Shown: positions 1 through 11,037 of the stretch, one piece after another
Position numbering within the stretch: the first letter of the stretch is position 1
Layout: each line of letters begins with the position of its first letter
Assembly: GCA_030037215.1 (NCBI GenBank)
Contig: JASHRS010000133.1
Location: forward strand, 1 to 32,627
Direction of reading: 5' to 3'
Length of the DNA: 32,627 bases
Source of the DNA: Silvibacterium sp.
GTDB taxonomy: Bacteria; Acidobacteriota; Terriglobia; Terriglobales; Acidobacteriaceae
The notes under the pieces: model-generated
What the model saw: only the letters and a program-made list of their open reading frames with translations
What the model was told of the DNA's origin: nothing
Database searches by the model: none
Position numbers and translations under genes: made by a program

Positions 1-1079
1 GGAAAGAGCAGAGGAACCAGCGCAAAGGTTCCACCGGTTCCGCAGGAAATGAAGATTCCGAGGACGACAAGAACGGACACGGAGAAATGCAGCGAGCCAG
101 ACAGCCCGGCGATGCTCAATGCAGCCATTGCGAGCGTAATCAGGATCAGGGACGATCCTAGCCAATGGAGACGGGGTGCGTAAGGCAGAGTTTTCGCAAT
201 GAAGGGCAACGGCGTCCAGCCTTTACGCTGGAAAAGGTCGGACATGAATCCAGAGAAAGGCCGGAAGAGCGATGCTGTGAAGGACTGGACGGCAGCGAAT
301 GTTCCGGCAGCGATCTGCGAGCCCGCAACGCCAGTGAAGCCCAGCGCGAGGATGGCACTATGGAAGCCGCGCGTAAAGTATCCGGGCAGCCAGGCGTTCA
401 TAGCGATTTCTAGGCCAAAGGACATGGCATAGGCCAACATGAGCGCGATGGCGATATAGCGGCTCCACACGAAGATGGTGCCCCGCAGGTCGCTGCGCCC
501 GCGTACAAAGTCCTGCTGCTGTGAAGTTTTGGCAGCATGGCCGCGCACGAGATACCAAGTCGCGATGCCTATTGCAATGACTCCAAGCCACAGAAAAGCG
601 CTGTGATAATTTGTGCCGAAGATTCTCGGCAGCAGCAGGGCGCCAGTTCCCGCACCTACATTGCCTGTACCGGCGTAAAGCCCTTCAGCAGTGCCGATCT
701 CGTATGCCTCAAACCATTGCGCAACATGCTGAATGCCGATGACGAAGGAAACTCCGGCAATGGACACAATGACGCGCTCAATAAAAAGTAGGCGATAGTT
801 GACGGTGTACGCGGAGGCTATTGATATCAGTCCGCAGACAGCAAGAATGAAGGCGAAGGTGCGGGGAGCACCGAAACGGTCCGACGCCCAGCCTGCGACA
901 ACACGGCCGACCGGAGCCATCCAGATTGCGGAACTCGCCAGCAGTCCGAGGGCCTTGATGCTGAGGTGGTAGTTGGCAGCAATGCTTGGGCTGAATGCCG
1001 CGGTAGAGAACCACATGAGAAAGCACCAGAAAAAACCTACAGTCGCAATAATGAGTTGTTCGACCTTGTGCGTAGTCAT
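1..1079 (-). CDS. narK: NarK/NNP-family MFS nitrate/nitrite transporter (3' end truncated by window start)
   Basis: Reverse-strand reading from ATG at 1079..1077 gives an open frame to position 1: MTTHKVEQLIIATVGFFWCFLMWFSTAAFSPSIAANYHLSIKALGLLASSAIWMAPVGRVVAGWASDRFGAPRTFAF...SCGTGGTFALVPLLF. The GTGGTFALVP segment resembles the NNP nitrate signature. Upstream AGAAAGGG acts as RBS. Not in the ORF track because it has no stop inside the window. Confidence 0.9.
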   Translation of the reverse strand, partial: MTTHKVEQLIIATVGFFWCFLMWFSTAAFSPSIAANYHLSIKALGLLASSAIWMAPVGRVVAGWASDRFGAPRTFAFILAVCGLISIASAYTVNYRLLFIERVIVSIAGVSFVIGIQHVAQWFEAYEIGTAEGLYAGTGNVGAGTGALLLPRIFGTNYHSAFLWLGVIAIGIATWYLVRGHAAKTSQQQDFVRGRSDLRGTIFVWSRYIAIALMLAYAMSFGLEIAMNAWLPGYFTRGFHSAILALGFTGVAGSQIAAGTFAAVQSFTASLFRPFSGFMSDLFQRKGWTPLPFIAKTLPYAPRLHWLGSSLILITLAMAALSIAGLSGSLHFSVSVLVVLGIFISCGTGGTFALVPLLF

Positions 1080-1187: not shown

Positions 1188-1225
1188 AAAAAGATGCGCA
1201 CCGTGTCCAGTGCTGAACGGGCGCA
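1188..1225 (-). terminator. Intrinsic terminator-like hairpin inside the narK 5' leader (candidate attenuator)
   Basis: Minus strand TGCGCCCGT-TCAGCACTGGAC-ACGG(T)GCGCA followed by TCTTTTT: 9 bp GC-rich stem with one bulged U, then a U tract, about 110 nt upstream of the narK ATG. No minus-strand gene ends just upstream of it. Confidence 0.6.
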
Positions 1226-1405: not shown

Positions 1406-1431
1406 ACTTGCACTCTTAAAACTTGCACTCT
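1406..1431 (+). repeat. Direct repeat ACTTGCACTCT x2 (15-bp period) overlapping the putative -35
   Basis: ACTTGCACTCT at 1406-1416 and again at 1421-1431. Confidence 0.6.
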
Positions 1432-1451
1432 GCAATTGACGCGGCTATGAT
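1423..1451 (+). promoter_or_regulatory. Putative sigma70-type promoter for the dmsBC-nasA operon
   Basis: TTGCAC (1423-1428), 17 bp spacer, TATGAT (1446-1451). The -35 lies in the second copy of an 11-bp direct repeat. Confidence 0.4.
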
Positions 1452-1517
1452 GAAGACACTTTCCTGCGACGCCACCCCGCCTGTGACGTCTTGACCACTC
1501 CATGATGAGCTTGTGTC

Positions 1518-1537
1518 CCGGAAGACGGCACTTCCGG
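1518..1537 (+). promoter_or_regulatory. ANTAR-target-like hexaloop hairpin in the dmsBC-nasA leader
   Basis: CCGGAAG-ACGGCA-CTTCCGG: perfect 7-bp stem and 6-nt loop with A at loop position 1 and G at position 4, the conserved loop identities of ANTAR-target hairpins. Confidence 0.5.
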
Positions 1538-1612
1538 TCGATCGGCTTTTGCATATTTGTCCTCAACATATTTTCTCGTTACCCGGCTTCGGGGAGTGGA
1601 GTTTATAGATAG

Positions 1613-3166
1613 ATGAATCTACCTTTGCTGCAGCAAGCAACAGAGGATGGCGAACAATATCGTTTGACGCCAGCTGGCATAGTGCCACGCAGGGACCGCT
1701 GCGCGATCGCAGCAGAGGGTTCGAACCTCACTCCGTCGCGGCTGCCGCTTGCCGGCGAGCAGTACCGCTTTCATCTTGACATGGAAAGCTGTATCGGCTG
1801 CAAGTGCTGTGTAGTTGCGTGCAATGAGCAGAACGGCAACCCGGCAGACATTCAGTGGCGGCGTGTTGGCGAGATAGAAGGCGGGACTTACCCGGACACG
1901 GTGCGCCACTACCTCTCGATGGGCTGCAACCATTGCCTTGAGCCAACCTGCATGACGGGATGTCCGGTCAACGCTTACACCAAGGACGCTCTGACGGGCA
2001 TTGTGCTGCACAGTGCCGAGCGCTGCATCGGCTGCCAGTATTGCACATGGAACTGCTCCTATGGCGTGCCGCAATACAACCCGGAACGCGGCGTAGTAGG
2101 GAAATGCGACATGTGCTACGGCCGGCTCACGGATGGCCGTGAGCCGGCCTGCGTCTCAGCGTGTCCCGAAGAAGCGATTCGGATTGAGATTGTAAATACG
2201 TCCGAGTGGCGGCGTGGGTACGCAGCACAAGCTAATGCGCCCGGCCTGCCCAGCGCGGATGACAGCATTTCGACCACTAGGGTCTCACTTGACACGGCAA
2301 TGCTGCAGAACATCTCCCGTGTAGACACCTCACAAGTTGAACCTGAACATCCACACTGGACGCTCATTTTCATGACCGTATTCACCCAACTCGCTGTGGG
2401 AGCGATTGCCGCCATGTGGGCCTCGCAGGCATTTGCGCGAGTTGCTATCGCCCGCGTTCCTGCAGCGATCATCGTGCTCATCGCGATTCTGGCATTATGC
2501 GCATCAACGCTGCATCTGGGACGGCCAATCTATGCGTTTAGAGCCCTCAGTATGTGGCGACGCTCGTGGTTGAGCCGTGAGGTTCTCTTTTTTTCTCTTT
2601 TTGCAGCAGCAGCAATTGTTTATGCGGGCCTGCTCTGGGTTCATTCCGGATCCAGCCTTTACGCAGGAGCATGCGCAACCGTTCTTGGATTCGCGGCTGT
2701 ATATGCCAGCGCCCGCCTATATACCGTTGCAGCACGTCCCATGTGGAACAGCAGCCATACGTTTGCAGAGTTTTATTTAAGTGCGGCTTTCACCGGCACG
2801 ATGGTTTCCGCGTTGTTTACGTCGGCAACTAGCAATGCGCTATTGCAAATGACGGCATGGGCTGCACTGGCCATTGCTGCTCAGCAAGCTGTGAAGTTTG
2901 CATGGTTGTGGCATTCGCGCGTGTTTGAGCTGCGCGCAGCGGGCGAGCTATTGCGTTATCGTTTCCTGGGGATATTCCTGACGAGGCTTTATACGCTTCC
3001 GGCCCTCGCAGCTGTTCTATTGCTGCTCGATAGACAGCTATGGGTGCGGATCGCCTGTATAGCGGTTGCGATTGCATTAGAGCTGGCCGGACGCTATCTG
3101 TTTTTTGTGAGTGTTGTGCCAAAGAACATGGCTGCGCCGTATCTTCGGCAGAGACGAGCTGCATGA
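1613..3166 (+). CDS. DmsB-like four-cluster ferredoxin subunit fused to a DmsC-like membrane anchor
   Basis: N-terminal Cys motifs CIGCKCCVVAC, CNHCLEPTCMTGC, CIGCQYCTWNC, CDMC...CVSAC (DmsB pattern), then a polytopic hydrophobic half. SD-like GGAG/TGGAG at 1593-1601. Confidence 0.9.
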   Translation: MNLPLLQQATEDGEQYRLTPAGIVPRRDRCAIAAEGSNLTPSRLPLAGEQYRFHLDMESCIGCKCCVVACNEQNGNPADIQWRRVGEIEGGTYPDTVRHYLSMGCNHCLEPTCMTGCPVNAYTKDALTGIVLHSAERCIGCQYCTWNCSYGVPQYNPERGVVGKCDMCYGRLTDGREPACVSACPEEAIRIEIVNTSEWRRGYAAQANAPGLPSADDSISTTRVSLDTAMLQNISRVDTSQVEPEHPHWTLIFMTVFTQLAVGAIAAMWASQAFARVAIARVPAAIIVLIAILALCASTLHLGRPIYAFRALSMWRRSWLSREVLFFSLFAAAAIVYAGLLWVHSGSSLYAGACATVLGFAAVYASARLYTVAARPMWNSSHTFAEFYLSAAFTGTMVSALFTSATSNALLQMTAWAALAIAAQQAVKFAWLWHSRVFELRAAGELLRYRFLGIFLTRLYTLPALAAVLLLLDRQLWVRIACIAVAIALELAGRYLFFVSVVPKNMAAPYLRQRRAA

Positions 3167-5355
3167 ACTTTCGCCGTTTTCTGGGGCTGGATATTGCCCG
3201 TGAAAAATATGCGTTCGTCAAGGATGCTCTTGTGGGCCACGTCTCCGCGCAAAAAGCGGCGGATCGTTGGGTGAAAACAACCTGCGGGTACTGTTCGGTG
3301 GGATGCGGCATGATGCTTGGTTTGCGTGATGACAAAGTCGTTACGTCGCGCGGCAATCCAGACCACCCGGTGAATCGTGGAAAGCTGTGCCCAAAGGGAT
3401 TGGCCGAGCACTATGTTCTTGAAGCAGAGAATCGCGCAGTTTCTCCGCTGCTTCGACACGAGGGCCTGCTTACGCCCGTCTCATGGAACGATGCAATGAA
3501 AATCATGGCAGCTAAGTTTCGCAATGTTGCTGAGAAACATGGCTCGCAGGCAATCGGCGTTATCAGCACCGGACAAATGGTCACCGAGGAGTTTTATACG
3601 CTCGGGAAGTTGGTTCAGCTCGGGATAGGCACATCGAACTTTGACGGCAACACAACCCTTTGCATGTCGACGGCAGTTTCCGGTTACAAGCGGTCATTCG
3701 GCAGCGATGGTCCTCCAGGCGCATATGAGGACATGACGAAGGCTGACGTTGTGCTGCTGATAGGAGCTAACATAGCCGAAAACCACCCTATCCTTTGCCA
3801 GCACTTGGATGCGAACCCTGCGAAGACATTGATTGTGGCGGACCCGCGCGTGACGAAGACGGCCATGATGGCGGATATTTATCTGCCGGTCAAGCCACGC
3901 TCGGATCTTGCACTGATCAACGGAATCGCACACATTCTGATCCGCGACGGGCTAATTGATCGCGAATATATTCGAGACCATACGAGAGGGTTCGATGAGC
4001 TTTGTGAGTTTCTTGAAACATATGATTCTGAATATGTGAGCGGCATCACCGGTCTGAGCACCGAGTCAATCCACAAAGTTGCTCACCTGTATGGCAAGGC
4101 AAACGCTGCGTTCATAGGCTGGACGATGGGCGTGAACCATAGCTCGAAAGGCACCGAGACAGTCAATGCAATCAACAATCTTGCCCTGTTGACTGGAAAT
4201 GTGGGACGCGTAGGTGGAACACCGTTTTCAATTACGGGACAGTGCAATGCCATGGGCACGCGGGAGACAGGCTTCACATCCAGCCTGCCGGGTTATCGCA
4301 AATTTGAGAGCGCAGCCGACCGCGAAGAATTGGCAGCACTATGGGGCATCTCTGCGGACCGCATTCCCGCGGAGCGTGGCCTTGCTTATCCGGATATCAT
4401 CAGCGCGGTGCTCAAGAAAAAGATTCGCGCACTGTGGATTATTGCGACCAACCCTCTGGTTTCGTTTCCAAATATTGATGTATTGAAACAAGCGCTTGAT
4501 GAGCTGGAGTTTCTCGTTGTTCAGGATTGTTTTCATCCGACGCCCACAACGCAACTGGCAGATCTTGTGCTGCCGGCGGCCTCATGGGGAGAAAAAGAAG
4601 GCACGTACACTAACTCCGAGCGGCGCGTGAGCAAGGTGAATGCTGCTGTGCCGCCTCCGGGTGATGCGAAGAGCGACTTTGCAATCTTTCTCCAGCTGGC
4701 GGGTGAACTGGGCTGCTATGACGAGCTGTTCCCCGGATGGGAGACACCATGTGATGCCTTTGAGGAATGGAAGCGGGTTTCGGAGGGCAGGCTTTGCGAC
4801 TATTCAGGCATAACCTACGAAGCGCTGGAAGAAGTTGGTGGTATCCAGTGGCCATTTCCAAAAAACGCGAACAGCTCGCCTGAAGCGACAAGGCGACTAT
4901 ATGCTGACGGGGAGTTTGAAACAGACGACGGTAGGGCACGGTTCTTTTGTGCGGACTGGGAGCCGTTTCCTGAGCAGCCGAATGCGGATTTTCCATTTGT
5001 CCTGAATACGGGCCGGACCGTGGAGCACTGGCATACACGTACCAAGACCGGGGCGGTGGCTATTCTGCAACAATTGTCGCCGCGCGCATGGCTTGAGATG
5101 AATCCCATGGATGCCAGGCGTCTCTCGTTGCGGCCTCATGATCTTGTGGACGTGGTTTCTGCGCGGGGGCGTGTACGCCGCGTGGAGCTTCGTGTGACTG
5201 AGGTGATTGCGCCGGGCCAGGTTTTTGCGCCTTTTCACTTTGCCGAGTGGAATATCAATGAAGTGACACAAGACATCTTCGACCCTATTTCACGGGAGCC
5301 GAATTACAAACAATGCGCCGTGCGCGTGGAACTGTCATCTGCCGCGCAGGAGTGA
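3163..5355 (+). CDS. nasA: Assimilatory-type molybdopterin nitrate reductase catalytic subunit (NasA/NarB-like)
   Basis: CGYCSVGCGMMLG...GKLCPKG [4Fe-4S] motif; GNTTLCMSTAVSGYKRSFGSDGPPG Mo-ligand region typical of NasA/NarB; C-terminal molydop-binding domain. Start at 3163 (MNFRRFLGL) overlaps the upstream stop as ATGA; the 3040 start in the track is over-extended. Confidence 0.9.
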   Translation: MNFRRFLGLDIAREKYAFVKDALVGHVSAQKAADRWVKTTCGYCSVGCGMMLGLRDDKVVTSRGNPDHPVNRGKLCPKGLAEHYVLEAENRAVSPLLRHEGLLTPVSWNDAMKIMAAKFRNVAEKHGSQAIGVISTGQMVTEEFYTLGKLVQLGIGTSNFDGNTTLCMSTAVSGYKRSFGSDGPPGAYEDMTKADVVLLIGANIAENHPILCQHLDANPAKTLIVADPRVTKTAMMADIYLPVKPRSDLALINGIAHILIRDGLIDREYIRDHTRGFDELCEFLETYDSEYVSGITGLSTESIHKVAHLYGKANAAFIGWTMGVNHSSKGTETVNAINNLALLTGNVGRVGGTPFSITGQCNAMGTRETGFTSSLPGYRKFESAADREELAALWGISADRIPAERGLAYPDIISAVLKKKIRALWIIATNPLVSFPNIDVLKQALDELEFLVVQDCFHPTPTTQLADLVLPAASWGEKEGTYTNSERRVSKVNAAVPPPGDAKSDFAIFLQLAGELGCYDELFPGWETPCDAFEEWKRVSEGRLCDYSGITYEALEEVGGIQWPFPKNANSSPEATRRLYADGEFETDDGRARFFCADWEPFPEQPNADFPFVLNTGRTVEHWHTRTKTGAVAILQQLSPRAWLEMNPMDARRLSLRPHDLVDVVSARGRVRRVELRVTEVIAPGQVFAPFHFAEWNINEVTQDIFDPISREPNYKQCAVRVELSSAAQE

Positions 5356-5368
5356 ATTTCCTGAAGCG

Positions 5369-6991
5369 TCACAGCTGCTTTGCCGCAGCGGCGCGTCGGA
5401 GCTCTTCGCCAAGCAGAACCGCCTCGGCAATCTCACGCATGCTTTTGCGGCGTTGACGGCTCTCCTTTTGCATCATGCGATAGGCGTCGTCTTCTTTGAT
5501 ATTGTGATCACGCTGCAGAAGCCCTTTTGCGCGCTCAATCAATTTGCGTGACTCAAGCTGCCCGGTGAGGGCGTCGCGCTCGCTTTCCAGCCGCGCCATC
5601 TCAATCTCTGCGCCTACAAGAAAGCCTACTGTGGAGATAGTCTGCATCTCCCACGGCGTATAGTTGTGAGGCTGGCGGTGCTGCACATTGATTACTCCAA
5701 CCAATCCTCCGCGCGCGAGGATCGGCACAGATAGAAACGCCTCAAAGGTGTCCTCCGGTAAATCCTTGAACATCTGGAAGCGTGGATCGCGCAGCGCACC
5801 TGAACTGATGGAGACCGGTTCCCGGTGCTCCGCAACCCAGCCGGTGATGCCTTGCCCGATCTCCAGCTCAAGGCGATCGATGACATCGGGGTGTGGGTTC
5901 TTCGAGGCACGAAGTACCAGCTGGTTTTCCTCGAGCACATAGATAAAGCAGGAGTCACAGCTCAGCAGCGTCTCAATGAAGCCGACAATCTGGTTGAGAA
6001 CGGCGTGCAGTGGATCAGAAGTAGCCATTCTGCGACCGATATCATGTACGATCCGAATTGCATTCAGGTGACGTGCATCGGGATGCCCGATGGCATCTAT
6101 TACAGTGACCTTTGCCGGAAGCGACGTTAGCGCTTTCTGCGACGCTGCTTTGCGTTTTTCCTGAAGCAGACGCGGTGCGCAGTCTGCAGCCTCATTAATC
6201 AAAAAGCCCATTTTCGGATGCGACGGCTCAAAGTCCGGTTCAACACCATGACGCGAAAGCTCCTCTGAAGTGCTCGGTCCGATCGAAAGGATCACGGTTT
6301 TCCGCAAGCCGTCAAGCAATGCCTGCGTGGAATTCATCATCTCTGCGACGCGGAACAGATGTACGACTTGAATCGCGGTCAGAAAGATTACAACGTCAAT
6401 TTTCCCTTCAGCAATCGATCGGACCGAGTTACGCAATGGCTCTAAATCATCCGGTAAGGCCCATTGGTAAACCGGAACACGCGTCCACTCCACCAGATGG
6501 CGGCTTAGCGCAGCTAGGAGATCTGGGTTGGTTGTGCCGTATTCCTGCACCGCGGCGCGCAGGCCTTCCAGCGAAGGGCCAAATGCCGCGTCGAGTGCAC
6601 TGATCACCTCGCGCCATGTGCATGGTTCGGGAGCAGTGACTGCAACCGGCAGTCCAAGCTCGCGCAATGCCGCACTGGACTTAGGCCCGCGCGCGGCCAG
6701 CTTGACGCGGCGCAATGATTCCAGTATCTGCGAGCGTTCGAATCGCGATCCGAGAATGTCCATGAGTCTGCGGATGCCGACGCCGGTGGTAAAGATAATA
6801 AGATCGAATTCTCCGTCTAGCAGGCGACGCCCGAATTCAAATGCCTCGTGGTTTGACTCGAGAGGGATTTCGCGCATGGCAGGTGCGACTGTGGGATTGC
6901 CGCCGTAAGTTCGAATGAGCTTGGATATCTCATCGGCACGACGGTTTTCAAGCGCAAGGACTTTCATTCCATTCAAGCTGCCAATCGCCAT
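5369..6991 (-). CDS. HemD (uroporphyrinogen-III synthase-like)-GAF-ANTAR fusion; probable nitrate-assimilation regulator
   Basis: N-terminal HemD-like region (MKVLALENRRADEISKLIRTYGG...FTTGVGIRRLMDIL...ARGPKSSAALRELG...), central GAF domain (LLSCDSCFIYVLEENQLVLRAS...IGQGITGWVAEHREPV...SVPILARGGLVGVINVQ), C-terminal ANTAR (LIERAKGLLQRDHNIKEDDAYRMMQKESRQRRKSMREIAEAVL). Start uncertain: 6991 or 6967 are more plausible than the 7066 start in the track. Confidence 0.88.
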   Translation of the reverse strand: MAIGSLNGMKVLALENRRADEISKLIRTYGGNPTVAPAMREIPLESNHEAFEFGRRLLDGEFDLIIFTTGVGIRRLMDILGSRFERSQILESLRRVKLAARGPKSSAALRELGLPVAVTAPEPCTWREVISALDAAFGPSLEGLRAAVQEYGTTNPDLLAALSRHLVEWTRVPVYQWALPDDLEPLRNSVRSIAEGKIDVVIFLTAIQVVHLFRVAEMMNSTQALLDGLRKTVILSIGPSTSEELSRHGVEPDFEPSHPKMGFLINEAADCAPRLLQEKRKAASQKALTSLPAKVTVIDAIGHPDARHLNAIRIVHDIGRRMATSDPLHAVLNQIVGFIETLLSCDSCFIYVLEENQLVLRASKNPHPDVIDRLELEIGQGITGWVAEHREPVSISSGALRDPRFQMFKDLPEDTFEAFLSVPILARGGLVGVINVQHRQPHNYTPWEMQTISTVGFLVGAEIEMARLESERDALTGQLESRKLIERAKGLLQRDHNIKEDDAYRMMQKESRQRRKSMREIAEAVLLGEELRRAAAAKQL

Positions 6992-7081: not shown

Positions 7082-7103
7082 CCAGCCCTTAATACAGGGC
7101 TGG
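7082..7103. promoter_or_regulatory. Perfect inverted repeat in the divergent ANTAR-regulator/nirA intergenic region
   Basis: CCAGCCCT-TAATAC-AGGGCTGG: 8-bp stem, 6-nt loop. Confidence 0.6.
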
Positions 7104-7286
7104 GCTGAAGATCATGAGGCCGATCACGACAAATTTTTTGGTTTGGCTTAGCTTTCTCTTGTGCCAAAGGCTGTAGCACAGTATTCTTGCATACATAGCA
7201 GCGAAGACCTGCACGGGTTCCGACGTTCGATCACAAGGTACGGTTTCCCTTTCCTTTGCTGCTTTGGCACCCCGCCTGTGCCATTA

Positions 7287-7313
7287 AAGCCTGACGCTGC
7301 TGCGTGCAGGCTT
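7287..7313 (+). promoter_or_regulatory. Long stem-loop in the nirA leader
   Basis: AAGCCTGACGC-TGCT-GCGT(G)CAGGCTT: 11 bp with one bulged G. Flanked by other hairpins (7265-7283, 7328-7360, 7364-7377, 7396-7415). Confidence 0.5.
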
Positions 7314-7440
7314 CCAACGCTCCCTGGTGAGCAATCGCGAACAGTTCAGTTTCTTGCTCAATGCGGGCCCTTGCCCGTTACAGCTACGCAGAGAACTGGC
7401 AGGCATTCCTGCTGGATTTCTTGGCGCAGGGAGATTCGAC

Positions 7441-9234
7441 ATGGCAGTACCGGAAACGCTTGCGTTGAAGGAGATGCAGGACACCCTCACAGTCGAGCAA
7501 AAAGAATATCTGGCCGGGTTTCTCCTCGCTGTAGCAAAGCGCGGGCCTACATTTTTCGCAGGACATACGGCGGACGGGCGTATTACGGCAGACCCCGGAT
7601 CGGTCGTACCAAACGCGGCTGCTGCTGCCGGGCAGGATTTGTGGTTCGGTACGCCAACGGATGAACTTTGCAAGGAAGAGTGCTGGAAGCTGCAAGAGAA
7701 TCCACTCGATATGTGGGACAAGCTTCTTGCGCACTCAGCGGAAAACCGCTTTCCAGAAGGCGCCGACATCTTTCGCTTCAAATATCACGGCCTTTTTTAT
7801 GTCGCGCCTGCGCAAGACTCCTTCATGCTGCGTCTACGTGTGCCAGGATGCATTCTTACTAGCCGTCAATTGCGAGGCCTTGCCGACATGGCCGAAGACT
7901 GGGGTGCTGGCGAGGCGCACGTCACCACGCGAGGCAACATTCAGATTCGTCAGTTTCAGCCGAAAGACATCATCAACGTACTGATGAAGGTTCAAAGTCT
8001 GGGCATGAGCTCGCGCGGTTCGGGCGCAGATAATATCCGCAACATCACTGCCACACCAACCAGCGGCATTGACCCAACCGAGCTGTTTGATGTTGCTCCG
8101 ATGGCCCAGGCGCTGAATTTTTACATCCAGAATTCGCGCGACTTGTATGAGCTCCCGCGAAAGTTCAACGTTGCCTTTGACAGTGGTGGCGCCATTAGCG
8201 TTGTGGCGGATACGAACGATATTGCCTTCATTGCGGTGCGTGTTCCTGAAGACCGGAGCATACCTGCGGGAATATATTTCCGCGTACAACTCTGTGGAAT
8301 CACGGGGCACAAACAGTTCGCGAGTGACAGCGGACTTTTGCTTACGCCAAGCCAGACGGTAGCGGTTGCTGCGGCCATGATTCGTATCTACATACAGAAC
8401 GGCGATCGCACGGACCGCAGGAAAGCACGGCTGAAATACCTGATTGATCGCTGGGGAACGGAGAAGTTTCTCGAAGAGACAGAGAAACTTCTTACCTTTC
8501 CTCTTATGCGTGTCTCTGTTGACGAATGCGAGCCTCGCTTGGCAGTCGACCGGCAAGGACATCTGGGCATTCACCCGCAGCGCCAGCCGGGCTTGTTCTA
8601 CATGGGGGCCGCGTTGCCAGTTGGGCGGATGAGTACAGCACAAATGCGTGCGATTGCCGACATTGCCGACACCCATGGCTCCGGTGAAATACGGCTGACA
8701 GTATGGCAGAACCTAATTTTGACAAATATCCCGGCTGGGAAACTCCAGGCGGCTCGACAGGCTTTAGCCGACGCTGGTCTTAGCGATTCGGCGAGTACCT
8801 TCGCAGCGGGAACCATTGCATGCACCGGCAATCGGGGTTGCAGGTACTCGGCAACCGACACCAAAGCGCACGCGCTTGAACTGGCTGGCTTTCTTGATGA
8901 ACGGTTCAAGATTCAACAACCGGTCAATCTACATGTGACGGGATGCCCACACTCGTGTGCACAACATTACATCGGAGATATTGGCCTGCTGGGCACAAAG
9001 ATCGGGGGTGAAGAAGGCTATCAGGTATTGATCGGCGGCGGGTCGGATGAGCGACGGGGACTGGGCCGCGAGTTCATACCTGCAATCCGCTTCGAAGATC
9101 TTCCACCAGTGCTGGAAGAATTCTTCAGGCTGTTTGAAGAGAAACGCGACGAAGGCGAATCGTTCCTCGACTTTACGCGGAGACATGAAATTAGGCATCT
9201 CAGAGAGATGCTCTCAATAAAGGAGCAAGCGTAG
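7441..9234 (+). CDS. nirA: NirA-type ferredoxin/siroheme-dependent nitrite (sulfite) reductase hemoprotein
   Basis: Repeated NiR/SiR domains, VTTRGNIQIRQF, CTGNRGC...TGCPHSCAQ siroheme/4Fe-4S motifs. Start at 7441 (MAVPETLALK) is preceded by AGGGAG. The 7327 GTG start in the track overlaps hairpin-rich sequence. Confidence 0.88.
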   Translation: MAVPETLALKEMQDTLTVEQKEYLAGFLLAVAKRGPTFFAGHTADGRITADPGSVVPNAAAAAGQDLWFGTPTDELCKEECWKLQENPLDMWDKLLAHSAENRFPEGADIFRFKYHGLFYVAPAQDSFMLRLRVPGCILTSRQLRGLADMAEDWGAGEAHVTTRGNIQIRQFQPKDIINVLMKVQSLGMSSRGSGADNIRNITATPTSGIDPTELFDVAPMAQALNFYIQNSRDLYELPRKFNVAFDSGGAISVVADTNDIAFIAVRVPEDRSIPAGIYFRVQLCGITGHKQFASDSGLLLTPSQTVAVAAAMIRIYIQNGDRTDRRKARLKYLIDRWGTEKFLEETEKLLTFPLMRVSVDECEPRLAVDRQGHLGIHPQRQPGLFYMGAALPVGRMSTAQMRAIADIADTHGSGEIRLTVWQNLILTNIPAGKLQAARQALADAGLSDSASTFAAGTIACTGNRGCRYSATDTKAHALELAGFLDERFKIQQPVNLHVTGCPHSCAQHYIGDIGLLGTKIGGEEGYQVLIGGGSDERRGLGREFIPAIRFEDLPPVLEEFFRLFEEKRDEGESFLDFTRRHEIRHLREMLSIKEQA

Positions 9235-9237
9235 CGT

Positions 9238-11037
9238 ATGACGGCAGATCTCGTTCCATATATTCCTGAAGACGCGCCGTTCTCTCCTGCTCAGCGATCC
9301 TGGCTCAATGGCTATCTTGCCGGTCTTTATTCCTATGCTCCAGCGAAAATGGCCGAGGCCCAGCCATCGCTGCAGTTGGCGGTGCTTTATGGCTCGCAGA
9401 CCGGTACTGCGGAAGGGTTAGCGCGGAAATTTTCAAAAGAGCTGAAAGCTGCCGGACATACTGTGACGCTGACATCACTCGAAGGTTATGTCCCGGCCAC
9501 ACTCGCTGCGGAAAAATACGCTCTGTTTATTGTCTCGACTTATGGAGAGGGAGAAGCACCTGACGTAGTGCAGCCGTTTTACCAGCAGCTATGCGTAGAG
9601 CATTTTCCATTACTCCAAAATCTTTCTTATGCCGTGCTTGCGCTCGGCGATTCGCACTATGAACATTTTTGCCAGTTCGGGAAGGACCTCGATAAGAAGC
9701 TTAATGCATTGGGCGCAACCCCCATTATCGATCGCGTGGAGTGCGATATAGATATTGATGCTCCGTATGCCATGTGGAAGCAGGTCATAACGGGAAAGCT
9801 TGTTGAGCTCGCGTCAGGGCAATCACCGTCAATAGAAAAACCCGATACACATGGAGCAGAGACCCCAGCAGCATCGGATCATTACGGTTCATCCCCCCAA
9901 AAGGGGGCACTCGTACATACGCGTGACAATCCATTTTTTTCACCACTCGCCGAAAAGCGTGCGCTCACTCATCCAGCGTCGAGCAAACTAACCATTCATC
10001 TCGATTTCGAGATTGAGGGTTCAGCCATCCAATACGAAGCGGGAGATGCCTGTGGCGTGATTCCGCAGAATAGCCCTGATCTTGTCGATGCACTCCTCGG
10101 CCTGCTCCCTTTCAGCGGAGGCGAGGCAGTTGAGGTTCCAAAAGTCGGTAGTGTTGCCTTGCGTGATGCTTTACTCCATCACTTTTCCGTTACCCGGCTC
10201 ACTCGCAAAATCATTGCGGATTACGCAGCCCTGGCACAGTGTTCTCGCCTCGGTGCAATGCTTGCACCTGATAATCATCCCGAATTGGAGAAGTATCTGC
10301 ATGGACGTGATCTTGTCGATCTTTTGCGGCAGTGTCCGGGCGTTCTGAAAAAACCTGAGGATTTGATAAAGATGCTGCCCCGTCTAGTGCCGCGGCTCTA
10401 TTCGATATCATCCAGTCCTGCGGCCCATCCTGGCCGGATTCATACTACTGTTTCCGTTGTAAAGTACGTTTCGCACGAGCGTGAACGTGGGGGTGTGTGT
10501 TCCACACTACTAGCTGACCGCGTGGCTGTTGGCGACCGGCTGCCTATCTATATCCAGCCGAACAAGAAGTTCCGTCTACCGAAAGATGCGTCAGCTCCCG
10601 TAATTATGGTGGGGCCCGGCACAGGGATTGCTCCGTTCCGTGGATTTTTGCATGAACGGCGCGCCACAGCTGCTTCAGGACGCAACTGGCTTTTCTTTGG
10701 AGAGCGCAGTGCCGCAACAGATTTTCTCTATCAAGACGAGTTGCAGGTTATGGCGCGCGATGGACTCCTGACCCGGCTTGATACTGCTTTCTCGCGTGAC
10801 CAGGGCCACAAAATTTATGTGCAGGACCTGATGAGGCAAAACGCTCGACAGCTTTGGGCATGGTTGCAGGAGGGAGCGTTCCTTTATGTCTGTGGTGACG
10901 CCTCGCGTATGGCAAAGGACGTGGATCGTGCGTTGCATCAAGTGATAGAAGTGGAAGGAAATATGTCCCAGGCAGATGCCGGCAATTATGTGGGAGCACT
11001 CAAGGATGGTCACCGTTATCAGCGCGATATTTACTAG
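9238..11037 (+). CDS. CysJ-like diflavin (flavodoxin + FAD/NADPH) reductase, probable electron donor to NirA
   Basis: LYGSQTGTAEGLA flavodoxin motif, STYGEGEAPD, PRLYSISSSP FAD motif, GPGTGIAPFRGFL, YVCGDASRMAKDV, C-terminal YQRDIY. Starts 3 nt after the nirA stop. Confidence 0.92.
   Translation: MTADLVPYIPEDAPFSPAQRSWLNGYLAGLYSYAPAKMAEAQPSLQLAVLYGSQTGTAEGLARKFSKELKAAGHTVTLTSLEGYVPATLAAEKYALFIVSTYGEGEAPDVVQPFYQQLCVEHFPLLQNLSYAVLALGDSHYEHFCQFGKDLDKKLNALGATPIIDRVECDIDIDAPYAMWKQVITGKLVELASGQSPSIEKPDTHGAETPAASDHYGSSPQKGALVHTRDNPFFSPLAEKRALTHPASSKLTIHLDFEIEGSAIQYEAGDACGVIPQNSPDLVDALLGLLPFSGGEAVEVPKVGSVALRDALLHHFSVTRLTRKIIADYAALAQCSRLGAMLAPDNHPELEKYLHGRDLVDLLRQCPGVLKKPEDLIKMLPRLVPRLYSISSSPAAHPGRIHTTVSVVKYVSHERERGGVCSTLLADRVAVGDRLPIYIQPNKKFRLPKDASAPVIMVGPGTGIAPFRGFLHERRATAASGRNWLFFGERSAATDFLYQDELQVMARDGLLTRLDTAFSRDQGHKIYVQDLMRQNARQLWAWLQEGAFLYVCGDASRMAKDVDRALHQVIEVEGNMSQADAGNYVGALKDGHRYQRDIY

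Follow-up and report, generated by a model that had tools for sequence, protein, structure and literature searches.

A HemD–GAF–ANTAR protein that probably regulates nitrate assimilation in Acidobacteriaceae through RNA binding

The window analysed here, a 32,627-nt stretch of Silvibacterium sp. DNA, carries a nitrate-assimilation locus in which one gene encodes a protein with HemD-like, GAF, and ANTAR domains. In the Acidobacteriaceae, this protein probably controls nitrate assimilation as a one-component regulator that binds RNA, its target being a pair of hairpins (P1 and P2) in the 5' leaders of the assimilation genes. Judging from conservation at the sequence level, the leader hairpin pair is very probably gripped by the regulator. 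The regulator represents a new architecture within known kinds of proteins, namely ANTAR regulators and HemD-sensor regulators, and its target a probable new class of RNA. The regulator–RNA pair provides a testable entry to nitrate assimilation in the Acidobacteria, which are a dominant phylum in soils and not easily tractable.

Domain architecture of the regulator

The regulator gene is located at 5369..6991 on the minus strand and encodes 540 aa. The longest open reading frame extends to 7066, but this start was rejected because 31 homologues begin aligning at approximately 6991, and the gene limits proposed in an earlier note on this DNA were therefore upheld. The three-domain architecture claimed in the same note was also confirmed, since all three domains were located by profile searches and scored above the Pfam cut-offs in a single uninterrupted frame without stops. 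A HEM4/HemD-like domain (PF02602; 6197..6934, minus strand) was matched with an E-value of 1.2e-36 (about 126–128 bits, cut-off 27.5), a GAF domain (PF01590; 5603..6010, minus strand) with 5.8e-16 (60 bits, cut-off 22.4), and an ANTAR domain (PF03861; 5414..5572, minus strand) with 1.1e-17 (64 bits, cut-off 27.3) using hmmscan. The HEM4 match covered profile positions 1–230/231, which corresponds to the full-length fold, and the HemD domain was strongly conserved across homologues, which fits a ligand pocket.

The ANTAR region could be aligned by sequence with those of Rv1626, EutV, NasR, and AmiR. RNA binding by NasR has been reported to need R340, K347, and an aromatic residue at position 362 (PMC7496416). 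The equivalents in the regulator are R482, K489, and Y504 (Tyr in place of W362), and they were invariant in 32 of 32 homologues; the equivalent of NasR K341 is also present in the window protein. No other ANTAR protein was found in the 3.67-Mb assembly. An AlphaFold2 model built with 32 homologues had a mean pLDDT of 82.5 and a pTM of 0.46, so that the HemD, GAF, and ANTAR regions were modelled confidently while their mutual arrangement is uncertain, and the linker at residues 287–324 was floppy. A structure search with this model retrieved Thermus uroporphyrinogen-III synthase and GAF structures of PtsP.

Nitrate-assimilation locus and distribution of the fusion

The nitrate-assimilation context named in the earlier note was evident both in the window and in related genomes. 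The window contains genes for a narK-like MFS nitrate/nitrite transporter (3..1079, minus strand, running off the left window end), a dmsBC-like fused Fe-S and membrane-anchor subunit (1613..3166, plus strand), a nasA-like molybdopterin nitrate reductase (3040..5355, plus strand, whose true start may be further in), a ferredoxin-type siroheme nitrite reductase, nirA (7441..9234, plus strand), and a cysJ-like NADPH flavoprotein (9238..11037, plus strand). For nirA, the GTG start at 7327 was rejected because homologues and a ribosome-binding-like GGGAG favour the ATG at 7441; with this corrected start, the gap between the regulator and nirA is approximately 450 nt. This intergenic region also contains a perfect inverted repeat, CAGCCCT-TAATAC-AGGGCTG, at 7084–7103.

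The nirA and cysJ-like genes (7441–11037) are 3 nt apart and were kept together in 27 loci. This conserved pairing suggests that the flavoprotein feeds the ferredoxin-type nitrite reductase, and it is probably the electron donor for NirA. The fused DmsB/DmsC-like subunit gene overlaps the NasA-type nitrate reductase gene (1613–5355), and this arrangement, kept in approximately 27 loci, places a membrane-anchored, probably quinol-linked reductase within the assimilation locus.

Full-span matches to the regulator were confined to the window's own family among the 396 genomes of the phylum searched, and all fusions seen came from Acidobacteriaceae-type genomes. In the rest of the phylum, the HemD-like and GAF-ANTAR parts occurred as separate proteins, or HemD was fused to HemE. 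In a tree of the HemD part, all 40 fused rows fell on one side of a branch with a support of 100/100; they form one clade, and a single fusion event is the simplest reading. A fused homologue covering 80% was not found among 72,556 plasmid records, and no combination of ANTAR with HemD or HEM4 was found in the open-access literature searched.

A census of neighbours, as suggested in the earlier note, revealed an association with nitrogen genes in the Acidobacteriaceae: the regulator adjoins nirA-cysJ-dmsBC-nasA in most family loci. A nirA match was present in 45 of 301 family genomes, 44 of which also had a HemD-GAF-ANTAR match; in the sole exception (G592), nirA was cut at a contig end. In many relatives, an alginate-export-type porin gene or a gene that we refer to as c12 lies between nirA and the regulator (e.g., L004:8205-9845 and L055:7920-8780). 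The c12 gene had no Pfam match, and both genes are absent from the window.

Tandem-hairpin motif in the leaders

Alignment of nirA leaders revealed a tandem-hairpin motif that is common to the leaders of nirA, the split dmsBC-nasA operon, and the adjacent porin gene, and to those of nirB in genomes where nirB takes the place of nirA. Hairpin P1 has the form xxxAC[CnnGnn(n)]GUxxx, with closing AC/GU and a loop of 6–8 bases, and P2 has the form CUC[CnnGnn]GAG, with a loop of 6 bases by the search pattern; the two are separated by 5–52 nt. In the window, the nirA leader carries P1 at 7265..7283 (TGGCAC[CCCGCCT]GTGCCA) and P2 at 7319..7332 (GCTC[CCTGGT]GAGC), both on the plus strand, and the stretch from P1 to P2 folded as drawn with a z-score of -3.3. 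The dmsBC leader carries P1 at 1468..1490 (GACGcCAC[CCCGCCT]GTGaCGTC, with one mismatch) and P2 at 1498..1509 (CTC[CATGAT]GAG), also on the plus strand, and its P1 loop is identical to that of nirA. The first loop position was C in both hairpins of the nirA and dmsBC leaders and U or A in P2 of the porin leaders. The G at loop position 4 was constant in the aligned P1 and P2, although G4 was required by the search patterns and a few longer P1 loops were without it.

When both strands of the collected loci (1.3 Mb) were searched with a regular expression, 28 matches were returned, compared with 2–4 in block-shuffled controls; each of the 28 immediately preceded a nirA, dmsBC(-nasA), or porin gene and had its coding orientation. 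A covariance model (R1) was then run over the 3.67-Mb assembly. The nirA leader (7264–7334) ranked first with 42.5 bits and the dmsBC leader (1469–1512) second with 39.3 bits; the third-best match reached 18.5 bits, so that the only strong matches were these two, both members of the seed. Because the window leaders were in the seed, the decisive test is provided by other genomes. Matches of at least 30 bits occurred in 26 of the 301 family genomes, all 26 of which carry the regulator, and in none of the 235 family genomes lacking it. Twelve of the 26 lay outside the seed, and the hypergeometric probability for these 12 was 4e-10 with relatedness ignored.

Wherever the downstream gene was identified, R1 matches preceded nirA, dmsBC, porin, c12, or narK genes. 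The motif also preceded nirB in four species that have an NADH-type nitrite reductase in nirA's place (L157, L158, L159, and L145). Matches were weaker elsewhere: the narK leader of the window scored only 8.3 bits, with a weak P1-like hairpin at 1309–1343, one relative had a narK leader match of 21 bits, and in the genomes designated g8-type P1 was much altered (approximately 22 bits only). A terminator-like hairpin with a T run also lies in the window's narK leader at 1198–1213 (minus strand), downstream of the hairpin at 1309–1343. A motif in the regulator's own leader was rejected, as there was no match in the window; in relatives, the motif lies before the upstream neighbour of the regulator, a porin or c12 gene. 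An Rfam scan of the window returned nothing relevant.

The earlier note had placed an RNA-binding output in the leaders of the assimilation genes, and this idea gains strong sequence support from a conserved dual-hairpin motif that co-occurs with the regulator. The motif could instead be a real RNA whose reader is the ribosome, a small molecule, or a different protein, with the regulator located nearby for operon reasons. The canonical A at loop position 1 is missing, the link to the regulator comes from sequence comparison, and some regulator copies are without a motif nearby, all of which would suit such a reader. We nevertheless regard this as quite improbable, given that the regulator is the only ANTAR protein in the genome and in most of the relatives tested, that the co-occurrence is perfect at 30 bits or above, and that ANTAR targets are known to be dual hairpins with hexaloops and G4 (PMC3369931, PMC7496416).

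Transcribed leader versus DNA operator

Base pairs of P1 covaried, with changes on both sides. As the P1 seeds had been partly picked for pairing, the analysis was repeated with anchors consisting of AC[C..G..]GU and P2 only, with no further pairing demanded; 126 of 162 outward pairs formed, compared with a shuffled mean of 92, and none of 5000 shuffles was as high. The stem columns of P2 were nearly invariant, so that covariation in P2 cannot be judged. Of the 38 leaders, 28 had a promoter-like site (TTGnnn-16..18-TAnnnT) at a distance of 16–77 nt upstream of P1, compared with 2.0 expected. These sites include TTGTGC-17-TATTCT for nirA (7159..7187) and TTGCAC-17-TATGAT for dmsBC-nasA (1423..1451), both on the plus strand. 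With such a site upstream, the motif should be transcribed.

These results also bear on whether the inverted repeats serve a transcription factor as operators in the DNA rather than forming RNA hairpins. GGCAC-N6/7-GTGCC does have inverted symmetry, and an operator would show paired changes too. However, the loops are asymmetric (C1 and G4), all 28 matches share the coding orientation, the distance from the promoter-like element upstream is very variable, as is the spacing between P1 and P2, and the linked regulator has no DNA-binding domain; an operator is thus very unlikely. The asymmetric loops, coding orientation, and upstream promoter-like site fit a transcribed leader better.

Proposed mechanism of regulation

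In the mechanism that we propose, the HemD-like sensor and the GAF domain would control the C-terminal ANTAR domain, which as a dimer would grip P1 and P2 through their CnnGnn loops. Conservation, synteny, and co-occurrence suggest as putative targets the 5' leaders of dmsBC-nasA, of nirA-cysJ(-dmsBC-nasA), and of the porin gene, to which that of nirB is added in some species. The signal would most likely be nitrate, nitrite, or an intermediate of the siroheme pathway, perceived via HemD, and binding would most likely raise expression.

Our best guess for dmsBC-nasA is activation by antitermination. A terminator-like hairpin followed by TTTT is predicted at 1507..1550 (plus strand) in the dmsBC leader of the window and uses the 3' arm of P2 as its own 5' arm, which makes the two folds mutually exclusive. 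In the dmsBC leaders of the window and one relative (L004), where this overlap was seen, the P2 3' arm GAGC can pair with GGCUUUU or AGCUUUUU to form the terminator-like hairpin. Binding would keep P2 closed and thereby block the terminator sharing the GAGC arm, as in classical ANTAR antitermination. The predicted fold in the window (-16.4 kcal/mol) had a z-score of -1.3, with 20 of 200 shuffles as good, and the terminator is suggestive only. In the nirA leaders, a hairpin tended to follow P2, and classical terminators were found in 5 of 35, which did not differ significantly from shuffled sequences (about 2.4 expected, range 0–6).

The lack of a clear terminator in nirA leaders would also be expected if binding represses expression, e.g., through a block of translation of the kind reported for ANTAR RNAs of mycobacteria. 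We consider repression unlikely, since the motif in the window lies approximately 100 nt or more before the start codons of nirA and dmsBC, too far to cover a ribosome-binding site, and since P2 overlaps the putative terminator in the dmsBC leader. The leader motif offers a short RNA to assay together with a candidate regulon comprising nirA, nirB, dmsBC-nasA, and the porin gene.

Role of the HemD domain

The actinobacterial regulators to which the earlier note alluded, in which HemD-like domains are joined to DNA-binding domains near nir genes, correspond to NnaR, which controls nitrate and nitrite assimilation and whose HemD domain has been reported to be catalytically inactive, with an unknown ligand (PMC6277429, PMC11162112). 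In addition, stand-alone HemD-like genes directly follow nirD on Deinococcus plasmids (nirB-nirD in the one record shown), and an NnaR-like gene on a Tsukamurella plasmid lies between nitrate transporter and sirohydrochlorin chelatase genes. Siroheme-dependent nitrite reduction and HemD-like proteins are thus linked in several cases, so that by analogy a siroheme-pathway signal is plausible for the HemD domain of the regulator.

A second, canonical HEM4 gene is present in the same genome (contig C94). The HemD domain of the regulator as the cell's only synthase was rejected because this second HEM4 scored far better. The domain might still be a working uroporphyrinogen-III synthase, in which case the protein would both make a siroheme precursor and regulate the nir genes. 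This dual role appears unlikely: every tested genome with a fused copy has a second, better-scoring HEM4 protein, and the NnaR precedent is of a domain reported to be inactive (PMC6277429, PMC11162112). On the other hand, the HEM4 fold is full-length and strongly conserved, and among its closest relatives are HemD-like proteins that stand alone and a biosynthetic-looking HemD-HemE fusion.

As a tentative extension of the regulatory reading, which we hold to be possible rather than probable, the HemD domain would have given up its role as an enzyme, or would not be confined to it, and would gate the binding of ANTAR to the C1/G4 leaders in response to a siroheme-pathway intermediate, which would make this protein the first case of an RNA regulator gated by HemD. 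If so, the siroheme-dependent nitrite reductase, nitrate reductase, and porin would be made only when both cofactor supply and nitrogen state allow, and a HemD sensor with a DNA output in actinobacteria would have been re-used with an RNA output in Acidobacteria. For the question of what NnaR-type HemD domains sense in actinobacteria, the regulator provides a second, independent system, in which a sensor of this kind is coupled to another output within the same pathway.

Comparison with known systems

NnaR resembles the regulator in its N-terminal HemD-like domain, which falls in the same NCBIfam neighbourhood (PRK07239), in its linkage to nir and nitrate-transport genes, and in being a single-protein regulator. 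The output of NnaR is a DNA-binding winged helix of the OmpR/PhoB type, whereas that of the regulator is GAF-ANTAR (RNA), with no C-terminal DNA-binding domain; the regulator also has an extra GAF domain and belongs to another phylum. Of the positions that are invariant in the regulator family, only approximately half are kept in the NnaR-like HemD used for comparison.

NasR, the NIT-ANTAR protein acting on the Klebsiella nasF leader, is likewise a one-component sensor-ANTAR protein for nitrate assimilation with tandem hairpins in an operon leader, and its key RNA-binding residues are kept in the regulator. The sensor of NasR is NIT and its loops are A1/G4, while the regulator has a HemD-GAF sensor and C1/G4 loops, and terminator evidence is limited here to the dmsBC leader. 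NasS-NasT and the EutV-type ANTAR response regulators share an ANTAR output on the leader RNA of nitrogen genes, but the regulator has neither a receiver domain nor a partner sensor, and its GAF domain joins ANTAR directly.

Known ANTAR target RNAs are dual hairpins with hexaloops and G4 (PMC3369931, PMC7496416, PMC8164766), those studied have A at loop position 1 (PMC3369931), and a linker of 2–25 nt has been used as a criterion (PMC8164766). The motif described here similarly consists of two leader hairpins with a nearly constant G4; its loops have 6 bases in P2 by the search pattern and 6–8 in P1. It differs in having C at loop position 1, in its linker, which often exceeds 25 nt, and in the strongly conserved CUC/GAG closing stem of P2. 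A scan of the nirA leaders for canonical A1/G4 hairpins gave scattered matches and nothing consistent. The C1 loops would represent a variant ANTAR specificity; if binding is shown, this specificity would have been altered from A1 to C1.

Other contexts of the regulator and its parts

Second copies of the regulator were located away from the nas genes in four loci (L052, L053, L056, and L061), and no leader motif was found near these copies. Each is followed by a conserved gene, c15, which encodes approximately 500 aa and has no Pfam match over the cut-off. In two further loci (L077 and L079), the gene immediately following that of a gcvP-type glycine dehydrogenase encodes a stand-alone GAF-ANTAR protein. 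The HemD-HemE fusion proteins (L094, L096, L098, and L099), in which HemE was recognised by eye, belong to another acidobacterial family.
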